Assembly (NCBI GenBank): GCA_003169975.1
Contig: PNAA01000020.1
Span: 1-33,241 of the forward strand
Length of the DNA: 33,241 bases
Direction: 5' to 3'
Source: Spartobacteria bacterium
GTDB taxonomy: Bacteria; Verrucomicrobiota; Verrucomicrobiia; Chthoniobacterales; UBA10450
The notes beneath the pieces are model-generated. The model was not told where the DNA came from and searched no databases. It worked only from the letters and a program-made list of their open reading frames with translations. Positions within the stretch are counted from its first letter, which is position 1, and every line of letters starts with the position of its first letter. Positions 30,277 through 33,236 of the stretch are shown in pieces. The position numbers and the translations under genes are program-made.

Positions 30277-31281
30277 TCAATCCAGCGGGCTCTTCACCCC
30301 GAGGCCCGGCTTGTTCAGCACGTGGGTGTAGATCATGGTCGTCGAAACATCCTTGTGGCCCAATAACTCCTGCACCGTGCGGATATCGTAGCCATTTTCG
30401 AGCAGATGCGTGGCGAAGGAATGCCGCAGGGTGTGACAGCTCGCCGCCTTGGCGATGCGCGACTTTTGCACCGCCACCTTCACGGCGTTTTGCAGATTTT
30501 TCTCGCCCACATGATGCCGACGCAGCACCGGACGACCGTCCGCCGCTGCCCCGCGCGGATCGATCGACCGTTTCTCCGCGGGAAAGACCCATTGCCAGGC
30601 CCATTGCCGCGCCGCGCCGGGATTCTTCCGTGCATAGGCATCGGGCAACCAGACCGTGCCAAACCCCTCCGCCAGTTCCCGCTCATGAACCGCTTGCACC
30701 CGCTCCAGATGCTCGCGCAGCGCCGGCGCCACCGTCACGGGCAGCATCGTCACCCGATCCTTGCCGCCTTTGGCATGGCGCAAAGTGATCTGCAGATAGC
30801 GGAAATCGACATCCTTGACTCGCAAACGCAGGCATTCGAGCAGGCGCAGTCCGCTGCCGTAAAGCAGCTCGCCCATCAGCCGGTATTGACCGCTCAATTC
30901 GCGCAACACCGCCTCCACCTCCCCTCTGGCCAGCACCACCGGCAGCTTCGGCGGGCGCTGCACCCGCTGCAGGCCCTCCACCACGCCCAATTTGCGTTCC
31001 AAAACCACCTCGTAAAGGAAGAGCAGCGCGTTGAGGGCCTGGTTCTGGGTGGCCGCAGCCACCGCGCGTTCGCCCGCCAGGTAATTCAGGAACGCCGCCA
31101 CCTCGGCCTCTCCCATTTCCTGCGGATGGCGTTTGCCATGGAAGAGAATAAAGCGGCGGATCCAGCCCAGATACGCCTCCTCGGTGCGCAGGCTGTAGTG
31201 GCGGGTGCGCAAAATCGTCCGCACTTGTTCGAGAAATTTAGGCTTGGCTCTTTCGCTTTTGTCGGGCAGACTTGTTGCCAT
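30277..31281 (-). CDS. intI: Integron integrase (IntI-type tyrosine recombinase)
   Basis: A 334-residue tyrosine recombinase that inserts and excises gene cassettes by recombining attI with single-stranded folded attC sites. The SAM-like N-terminal domain (about 14-95, with [20 protein letters not shown]) and the catalytic domain are complete: R146 (SGLRLLE), K171 (AKGGKDR), H283 and R286 (CHTLRHSF), H309 (LLGHKDV) and Y318 (TTMIYTHV). The stretch of about residues 213-262 ([18 protein letters not shown] then [16 protein letters not shown]) holds the extra helix region that sets IntI apart from XerC/D. The C-terminal end is also IntI-like ([12 protein letters not shown]). ATG 31281 has a good AAGGAAGG ribosome site at 31285-31292. 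It points away from the cassettes, the canonical integron layout. Confidence 0.93.
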
Positions 31282-31916: not shown

Positions 31917-31982
31917 GCCTAACCAAGCGATGCAGCGAACTCCGAAAGCATTCGGAGTCGCTGATCTTGTATCTCGTTAGGC
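31917..31982 (+). other. attC site 1 (66 bp)
   Basis: R'' GCCTAAC (31917-31923) is complementary to R' GTTAGGC (31976-31982) and to the cassette's own 5' core at 31353. Between them, CAGCGA + A + CTCCGAA (31933-31946) pairs with TTCGGAG + TCGCTG (31951-31963) around loop AGCA; the unpaired A at 31939 is the extrahelical base expected in attC sites. R''-L'' spacing is 9 bp. The site defines cassette 1 as about 31354-31976. Confidence 0.93.
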
Positions 31983-31984
31983 CT

Positions 31985-32395
31985 ATGCGCGCTCTACGCA
32001 TTTTGATTGCCTTCATAACGGTTGCTGTTTGTAGCGAAACGGTGGAAGCGGTCCTCTCGCCGGAACAGTTGCGTGCTATCGGGCACCAAGCTAGCCAGGC
32101 GGTGCTTTATGCGCCGAAACCAGATTATCCACTTGAAGCACGATTCCATCATTTCACCGGCTCTGGTACGTTCATTATTCGCGTCCCCGTAAAAACAGGC
32201 CGAGTGGCAGAGGTTCGGGTATCGCGAAGCACAGGGCACGCGATTCTGGATGCAGCGGCCGTAAACGCCCTCAAACAGTGGCGTTTTAAGCCAGGCGTTT
32301 TGCGGCCCATTGGCGAGATTTCACCTCAGCGGCATGATCCATTCGGGAAGACGGACGCTCTGCTCAAAGTCCCGATCAATTTTACTATGCGATGA
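31985..32395 (+). CDS. Integron cassette 2: exported TonB C-terminal-like protein
   Basis: From ATG 31985, two bases beyond the attC core, the protein has 136 residues; the TTG at 31967 lies in the attC site and is not used. A signal peptide or anchor (MRALRILIAFITVAVCSETV) precedes a TonB C-terminal-type domain: YPLEARFHHFTGSGTFIIRV, TGRVAEVRVSRSTGHAILDAAAVNALKQWRFKPG. This domain normally contacts the TonB box of outer-membrane transporters, but here there is no long Pro-rich periplasm-spanning arm and no exbBD neighbour, so it is more likely a stand-alone periplasmic TonB-C protein. Confidence 0.85.
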   Translation: MRALRILIAFITVAVCSETVEAVLSPEQLRAIGHQASQAVLYAPKPDYPLEARFHHFTGSGTFIIRVPVKTGRVAEVRVSRSTGHAILDAAAVNALKQWRFKPGVLRPIGEISPQRHDPFGKTDALLKVPINFTMR

Positions 32396-32397
32396 CG

Positions 32398-32673
32398 ACC
32401 TAACCATACGAGAGGCTGTGTGATAAGTCGTTCATCGTCCGAAGGTGTGAAAAAACGAAGCTCACAATTGACCTACACGGCGTTTTTATTTTCTCCGAAG
32501 GTGATTCGAACCTCTTTTTCGTGCTCCGAAATCGCTTCGCTGGAGTTTTCACACAGCCTCGCGATGGAGCTGACCACGAGCCGCCGTACCATCCGGTTTT
32601 CCATGACTTCAAACCGCCAACCCGCCGCCACCCGCGCTCTCGCTCGTGGCAGCTCATCTTATTCTCGTTAGAT
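32398..32673 (+). other. attC site 2, interrupted by an insertion
   Basis: R'' ACCTAAC is at 32398-32404 and R' GTTAGAT at 32667-32673. The stem is GAGCTG + A + CCACGAG (32567-32580) pairing with CTCGTGG + CAGCTC (32643-32655), with one extrahelical A as in attC1. R'' is separated from L'' by 162 bp instead of 9 because of an insert. Removing 153 bp (32412-32564) gives a 123-bp site with 9-bp R''-L'' spacing, the same as attC3. Cassette 2 spans about 31977-32667. Confidence 0.85.
32411..32561. mobile_element. MITE-like insertion in attC2 (~150 bp)
   Basis: The ends are inverted repeats: GAGGCTGTGTGA (32412-32423) and TCACACAGCCTC (32549-32560), 12/12 complementary, with partial matching beyond. 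Flanking CGA or CG on both sides suggests a 2-3 bp target duplication. It contains no gene, so it needs a transposase from elsewhere. It also has TCCGAAGGTG twice inside. The exact outer boundary is uncertain by one base. Confidence 0.75.
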
Positions 32674-32690
32674 TCAAAACACCACCTCTT

Positions 32691-33119
32691 ATGCTCGCCA
32701 AAAAATTCGCCCTCGCTTTCGGTATCGCCGTCGTTTTCCCTGCAATGCTTCACTATGGCGTGGCGACCTTCACGCCCGAGCCGCGATGGCAAGACTACAC
32801 TGTGTCCCCACTTATCGACCACGACTCGACGGAATATCAGAAGAAGGAAGCTGAACGTCGTGCGGCGGAGCACGTATTCGAGAGACATCTTTTCGCTGTC
32901 GCGGTGCCACTGGGTCTTTTAGCCATCATTGTTGGCGCTTTTTTGCCAACTCAGGCTATCGGCACAGGTTTGATGTTCGGCGGCATCTTCAGTGTTTGCG
33001 ACGGTTACTTCAACTATTGGGCCGAGCTTTCCGCTCAGCTTAAGTTCCTCTCGCTCTTGGCTGCCTTCGTGGTGCTCATCGTCGTGGGGTATCGAAGAAT
33101 TGAGAAGAAAGAAATCTAA
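32691..33119 (+). CDS. Integron cassette 3: unknown membrane protein
   Basis: ATG 32691 lies 23 bp inside the cassette and gives 142 residues; the upstream GTG at 32646 is inside attC2 and is rejected. The protein has an N-terminal span (FALAFGIAVVFPAMLHYGVA), a charged middle (EYQKKEAERRAAEHVFERHL) and three more hydrophobic segments (FAVAVPLGLLAIIVGAFL; IGTGLMFGGIFSVCDGYF; FLSLLAAFVVLIVVGY). No family is recognised. The last codons overlap the R'' box of attC3 (33114-33120), so gene and recombination site share bases. Confidence 0.8.
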   Translation: MLAKKFALAFGIAVVFPAMLHYGVATFTPEPRWQDYTVSPLIDHDSTEYQKKEAERRAAEHVFERHLFAVAVPLGLLAIIVGAFLPTQAIGTGLMFGGIFSVCDGYFNYWAELSAQLKFLSLLAAFVVLIVVGYRRIEKKEI

Positions 33120-33236
33120 CCATGCGCTCCAGCTGACGGCGAGCCGCCGTACTATCCAGCTTCACATCAGTTCAACCTGCCAATCCGTAGCGATGCGCGC
33201 CCTCGCTCGAGGCGGCTCATCTTGTTCTCGTTGATA
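33114..33236 (+). other. attC site 3 (123 bp) and start of cassette 4
   Basis: R'' ATCTAAC (33114-33120) is the exact complement of the 5' core GTTAGAT of cassette 3 (32667-32673), proving the pair. GAGCCGCC (33141-33148) pairs with GGCGGCTC (33211-33218). The right end, ATCTTGTTCTC then GTTGATA (33230-33236), aligns with that of attC2. The core of the next cassette is unusual (GTTGATA rather than GTTRRRY). An ATG at 33236-33238 may begin the cassette 4 gene, cut off by the window end. Confidence 0.87.

Follow-up and report, generated by a model that had tools for sequence, protein, structure and literature searches.

An IS1182-type MITE inside an integron attC site and recurrent insertion at the same attC position in Verrucomicrobiota

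The integron described here has attC sites of 66 and 123 bp and, between them, one of 276 bp, which raises the question of whether the long site is a native form or an ordinary attC broken by a mobile element and, if it is broken, whether the element has a preference for such sites. The window, by which we mean the whole stretch of 33,241 nucleotides that was analyzed, is the entire contig (C43) of a 4.47-Mb draft genome and ends just beyond the third attC; its integron consists of an integrase followed by three cassettes. The features were assigned as follows.

30277..31281, minus strand: intI, integron integrase (NCBIfam TIGR02249, 441 bits, cut-off 265)
31917..31982, plus strand: attC1, 66 bp, uninterrupted, R''-L'' spacer CAAGCGATG (9 nt); from sequence, folded hairpin with R and L stems
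31985..32395, plus strand: cassette 2 gene, TonB C-terminal domain protein (Pfam PF03544, E 1.3e-10)
32398..32673, plus strand: attC2, interrupted, 276 bp, or 123 bp minus the element and one copy of the target duplication (sequence; empty-site alignment)
32398..32404, plus strand: R'' box ACCTAAC of attC2 (sequence; consensus RYYYAAC)
32408..32411, plus strand: left 4-bp target duplication, ACGA (compared with GCGA at 32561-32564; exact duplications in relatives)
32412..32560, plus strand: IS1182-type MITE, 149 bp, terminal repeats at 32412-32426 and 32546-32560 (repeat and comparative searches)
32561..32564, plus strand: right copy of the target duplication, GCGA (comparison with relatives)
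32567..32581, plus strand: L'' side of attC2, GAGCTGACCACGAGC, displaced 153 bp from R'' (in the fold, pairs with GCTCGTGGCAGCTC near 32642-32655)
32667..32673, plus strand: R' box GTTAGAT of attC2 (box comparison among sites)
32691..33119, plus strand: cassette 3 gene (no family match in family profile searches)
33114..33236, plus strand: attC3, 123 bp, uninterrupted, spacer CATGCGCTC, degenerate R' GTTGATA (79% identity to restored attC2)

The interrupted attC site

attC2 is interrupted, in the interval from R'' to L'', by a gene-less element of 149 bp (32412-32560) whose terminal repeats are GAGGCTGTGTGA. The inverted ends read GAGGCTGTGTGAWAA; the two terminal repeats (GAGGCTGTGTGATAA and GAGGCTGTGTGAAAA) are identical at 12 of 12 positions and at 14 of 15 over 15 bp, and a repeat finder extended the pair to 21 nt at 86%. 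It carries no transposase gene, and the open reading frames listed there cross its borders. An earlier note on this DNA had described a gene-less segment of about 150 bp with 12-bp perfect inverted ends, in agreement with these measurements, and a flanking duplication of 2 to 3 bp. The target duplication (TSD) is actually 4 bp long, and in the window its two copies differ at one base (ACGA/GCGA); it is exact in six of eight related copies, and relatives have GCGA/GCGA, GCGC/GCGC, and TCGC/TCGC at the same place. Because its ends are those of the IS1182 family, we classify the insert, from its sequence, as a MITE of that family.

No Rfam family exceeded the threshold in the window, a plasmid similarity search found no match, and no promoter or terminator supplied by the MITE was found. 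A tRNA-like core (GGTTCGAATC motif) was tried as a candidate, and ARAGORN was negative. Further copies of the 150-bp element, a prospect raised in the earlier note, are absent from its own draft genome, where it is single copy; genome G010 has two copies, and G719 has two identical ones. The window's genome also holds seven MITEs of ~148 bp with other ends, GGGCGTGTTGCTCAAA (L150 and L153-L158; contigs C18, C33, C23, C58, and C8), which have the interior core of the window MITE (AAAACGACGCTCACAATTGACCTATA...GTGATTTGAACCC), so that the core is kept and the ends differ. Some of these are flanked by the palindrome GGGGTCGCGTCTAAA/TTTAGACGCGACCCC, and a 1.6-kb IS1182-like element with GGGCGTGTTGCTCAAA ends occurs in the same genome (L111).

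Removing 149 + 4 bp and joining the flanks yields a 123-bp site with R'' and R' boxes, pairing L'' and L' arms, and an extrahelical L'' base, as in other attC sites. The earlier claim that a 153-bp deletion produces an attC of this length is thus borne out, as are the 123 bp of attC3 and the 9-nt spacer of attC1; restoration "to the base" holds with one ambiguity, since the duplication begins with A in one copy and with G in the other. When the restored site served as query against the family's 83 genomes, attC sites were matched at ~100 places in 35 of them (best match, 87% identity over 120 bp), and the great majority of these were uninterrupted and covered most or all of the query. Among the fetched loci, 32 of 51 alignments were full length, with an R''-L'' spacer that was mostly CANNCGATG or CANNCGCTG.

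Could the 149 bp nevertheless be part of a native, long recombination site? The fixed place of the segment within attC in several genomes could be read that way, and the earlier note had named, as the mark of such a site, the same 276 bp in unrelated integrons that lack any 123-bp form. The ~100 family attC sites, most of them uninterrupted over 117 to 124 bp, refute this reading and show the 276-bp form to be an insertion; the occupied sites (window, G004, and G005) align only from query position 12, which is the insertion point, and in other phyla, copies of these ends flanked by 4-bp duplications lie outside attC. We consider a native long attC hardly credible. That attC2 is broken by a MITE whose removal restores an ordinary attC, the central claim of the earlier note, is upheld by the empty-site alignment, the IS1182-type ends, and the exact TSDs of relatives. 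What that note overlooked is that insertion at this attC spot is targeted and recurrent.

Related elements at the same attC position

A complete autonomous copy with these ends was not found in the window's own draft genome. The earlier note had proposed looking there for an insertion sequence with the same ends; an IS1182 remnant with a variant end lies in another attC of that genome (G000 contig C36). In a relative, G155, an IS1182 element occupies a contig start (C64:1-1704), and its transposase (NF033551, 379.9 bits; cut-off 270) has a reading frame that is complete except for a few undetermined bases. The two ends of this IS also lie beside attC halves at the ends of contigs C151 (R'' side) and C88 (L'' side), with TSD GCGA. 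A genome of the window's genus, G004, carries a 779-bp internally deleted IS (C42:817-1595) that is 77.7% identical to the G155 IS over 632 bp; the attC that it occupies has its R' box, GTTAGGT, at +106. The first 17 nt of the window MITE are identical to those of the deleted IS and match the complete IS at 16 of 17 positions. Only ~17 nt per end are common to MITE and IS; the MITE interior is not IS derived, and a candidate origin by internal deletion of the IS was ruled out for that interior.

We searched the order by blastn (213 genomes), by profile, and, within the family (83 genomes), by ends only, with concordant results. Counting only insertions with paired ends or transposase evidence from the ends-only family search, plus the copy in G024, which has GGGG at its end and was therefore recovered by similarity, all 11 sites (window; G000 C36; G010 C25 and C4; G155 C164; the G155 IS; G005; G004; G022 C10 and C22; G024) fall in the R''-L'' spacer of an attC. 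Nine copies were measured, two from G719 included, and the distance from the AAC of R'' to the element start is 7 nt in eight of them and 8 nt in the ninth. Four of eight MITEs are in plus and four in minus orientation, and copies are 63 to 83% identical between genomes. A downstream R' (GTTAGRY, at 76 to 107 nt) was recognized at five of seven intact occupied family sites and was not recognizable at the other two (G024 and G155), and no insertion was seen on the R' side of attC. One copy from a different family within the order (G048) occupies a short palindrome that is not an attC.

Eight partnerless matches resembling the terminal repeats (G156, G013, G014, G166, G172, G175, G002 C132, and G155 C164:4-18) were left uncounted; most look like chance, as controls gave about as many, while those in G002 C132 and at the G155 contig start may be remnants. 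A relaxed anchored pattern gave more control hits than matches, and its count was not used as evidence. The G022 copies on C10 and C22 have identical 20-bp ends, both at contig starts. Contig C164 of G155 starts within a further MITE copy (L196:1-18), and several G155 and G022 contigs break off in such elements, which means that draft genomes understate the number of copies.

A class-wide pattern search that gave no control hits led to G719, the Limisphaerales genome of contig PMOA01, in which a 149-bp MITE, identical in sequence in its two copies, occupies two separate attC sites, one with TSD TCGC and the other with GCGC, both exact. Across 320 Limisphaerales genomes, the matches listed include 57 R''-anchored ends in 21 genomes; all 57 of these listed ends lie at 7 nt, where the pattern allowed 6 to 9, and there were zero control matches. 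A second end was found within 2.3 kb for 13 of the 57, delimiting MITEs of 149, 119 to 120, and 109 bp and elements of 1,672 to 2,154 bp. The remaining ends, which are most of the 57, are one-ended and may reflect decay, contig ends, or a diverged second end. One copy with a coding-looking flank (L072) was reinstated once its genome proved to contain more R''-anchored copies, although no R' could be located for L072 itself. Many one-ended junctions (L281-L325; e.g., G820 contigs C37, C214, C223, and C309) show R'', 7 nt, an element end, and ~61 conserved bases followed by unrelated sequence, some with GTTAGGC 118 to 200 nt downstream; these junctions may represent recombination sites that were altered and then spread along arrays.

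Recurrent insertion at the same attC spot in relatives points to a transposon group specialized on integrons, and we consider it very probable, from sequence comparison, that the window MITE was moved by an IS1182-family transposase and that one group of such elements in Verrucomicrobiota has this specialization. At the level of the sequences, ends, target, and TSD are held in common, empty sites exist, both orientations occur, and an essentially complete and a deleted IS1182 are found at the one position. Weighing against this reading are the missing autonomous copy in the window's genome, the MITE interior that is unlike the IS, the two occupied sites whose R' is not recognizable, the mostly one-ended Limisphaerales junctions, and a target that, unlike those in other phyla, is not centered on a local palindrome. 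An alternative hypothesis is that, in the absence of any target preference, one old insertion broke a single attC and this site was then spread by descent or cassette exchange. The MITE copies are indeed related, and attC sites resemble one another across the family, but the two orientations already contradict a single event. The TSDs (GCGA, GCGC, and TCGC) and the L'' arms also differ, MITEs, a deleted IS, and a complete IS all share the position, and one genome (G719) has identical copies in two different attC sites. We regard a single spread insertion as very improbable.

Target recognition and known attC-targeting elements

The exact end pair at this spacing was found in 87 stretches of public genomes from many phyla, with lengths peaking at 140 and 149 to 150 bp, and because of this recurrence, the pair at fixed spacing is more than chance. 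Elements of 1,686 bp with the same ends occur at Acidovorax and Paenalcaligenes loci, and the transposase of the Acidovorax element belongs to the IS1182 family (NF033551, 458.9 bits). In the cross-phylum set the TSDs are 4 bp, exact in 61 of 89 cases and with three of four bases shared in 18 of 89. The IS1182-type MITEs elsewhere (in Variovorax, Acidovorax, Boseongicola, Blastocatellia, and others) thus resemble the window MITE in ends, in length (mostly 139 to 150 bp), and in the 4-bp TSD, but differ in their targets, which are dispersed palindromes such as CCGCTTCTGGCCGAAAGCGG, centered on the TSD, rather than attC; 35 of 89 targets score ≥8, compared with 6.4 expected from shuffles. CTAAC was found 5 to 10 nt away at none of the non-verrucomicrobial ends (of 184 ends tested in total), and in the set of 92 copies it is nearby at verrucomicrobial ends only. 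Lengths of same-ended MITEs in Proteobacteria, Acidobacteria, and other phyla (L007-L093) are sharply fixed, mostly at 139 to 141 or 148 to 150 bp, with differing interiors, which suggests a constraint on length or structure. In another verrucomicrobial genus (L118-L141; G418, G521, and G401), MITEs of 241 to 310 bp and end pairs ~1.67 kb apart have the same ends, palindrome targets, and a TTTA-like TSD.

We postulate that the transposase would make a 4-bp staggered cut in the R''-L'' spacer, at the consensus CTAAC-NNN-^NCGM, 7 nt after the AAC of R'', and that this cut, at NCGM, would fall on the R'' arm where the central spacer meets the L box. The element would enter by its inverted ends in either orientation, with duplication of 4 bp, and a transposase of the G155 type would mobilize the MITE in trans. 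The transposase might read the attC hairpin, the sequence of its R''-spacer part, or both.

Whether the duplex motif CTAAC-NNN-NCGM or the folded hairpin is recognized is finely balanced, and recognition of the duplex has, in our judgment, nearly an even chance. R'' and the following 7 nt are constant while L'' is variable, the natural spacer consensus is CANNCGATG, the R' side is without insertions, and the verrucomicrobial target, unlike those in other phyla, is not centered on a local palindrome. Against duplex recognition, other IS1182 elements pick inverted repeats without sequence homology (PMC5678879), and the same ends lie at palindrome centers in other phyla. We tentatively entertain, at somewhat short of even likelihood, the proposal that an IS1182 DDE transposase recognizes attC in its folded, hairpin form and invariably cuts one particular arm, where the central spacer adjoins the L box, the elements being integron-specific parasites of Verrucomicrobiota that switch attC off and fuse neighboring cassettes.

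To our knowledge, two kinds of attC-specific element are known, and both are guided to the site by RNA (the IS1111-attC group by a guide RNA, and the group IIC introns). Insertion sequences of the IS1111-attC group, such as ISKpn4 and ISPst6, target the attC sites of cassettes (Tetu and Holmes 2008; Post and Hall 2009; as cited in PMC11187229) and in this resemble the elements described here. IS1111 elements have a DEDD transposase and a guide RNA and insert at one attC end, whereas the elements here combine true terminal repeats and a TSD with a DDE transposase of the IS1182 type and enter the spacer that separates R'' from L''; where the transposase at such a site is complete, it belongs to NF033551 (IS1182) rather than being an IS110/IS1111 DEDD enzyme. 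Group IIC-attC introns are also mobile and likewise target the attC hairpin (PMC7923331). They are retroelements that enter the bottom strand at TTGT/T, with neither terminal repeats nor TSD and in orientation opposite to the cassettes; in place of a ribozyme and reverse transcriptase, we found 149 bp with terminal repeats, a TSD, and no Rfam match. IS1272, of the IS1182 family, targets inverted repeats and is reported to replace its inverted-repeat target without a TSD (Wan et al. 2017, PMC5678879). It is like the attC elements in transposase family (NF033551) and terminal inverted repeats, and its preference for inverted repeats is comparable, but the attC elements keep both attC halves, have a 4-bp TSD, and occupy a fixed, asymmetric place; the lack of a TSD and removal of the target repeat that mark IS1272-type insertion were not seen at the attC sites.

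A literature search that covered few subscription journals found no report of an attC-targeting IS1182/MITE group. The parts are known (MITEs, IS1182, inverted-repeat preference, and attC-targeting elements); no description was found there of their combination, an IS1182/MITE group that in two orders of Verrucomicrobiota is specialized on a single 4-bp attC position. An IS1182/MITE group that strikes the same 4 bp of attC without a known guide would be a third, mechanistically different solution, and it raises a testable question: is a DDE transposase able to read a folded recombination hairpin?

Possible effect on cassette movement

The insertion would put the R and L boxes on different arms of a three-way junction; attC2 would then recombine poorly, and as a result cassettes 2 and 3 would tend to move jointly, as one unit, between attC1 and attC3. 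The earlier note had expected impaired folding of the R box. Folding with DNA parameters agrees in direction, with an R-stem pairing probability of 0.66 in the empty and 0.32 in the occupied site, but the predicted loss is only modest, as the MITE pairs within itself: an enforced R stem costs 0.33 kcal/mol in the empty and 0.81 kcal/mol in the occupied site, an extra ~0.5 kcal/mol. By this model, the thermodynamic effect of the MITE on attC2 would be mild.

Such figures also fit the alternative that the insertion is neutral, the MITE hairpin being extruded from the central spacer while the integrase still recombines attC2. Changes to the central spacer of Vibrio attC lower recombination, however, and its inversion does so ~470-fold (PMC2727003), so a 149-nt branch there would be expected to hurt. 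By analogy, this published result offers a stronger argument for impairment of attC2 than folding does, and we consider a neutral insertion unlikely. Under impaired recombination of attC2, the locking of cassettes 2 and 3 is plausible and a reasonable inference. Insertion of this kind would provide a natural mechanism for halting single-cassette movement, with multicopy examples in Limisphaerales. Sites of the same kind as those in the window also lie on seven other contigs of its genome (C49, C29, C42, C1, C25, C44, and C8), and the integron or attC clusters there are thus large and fragmented.
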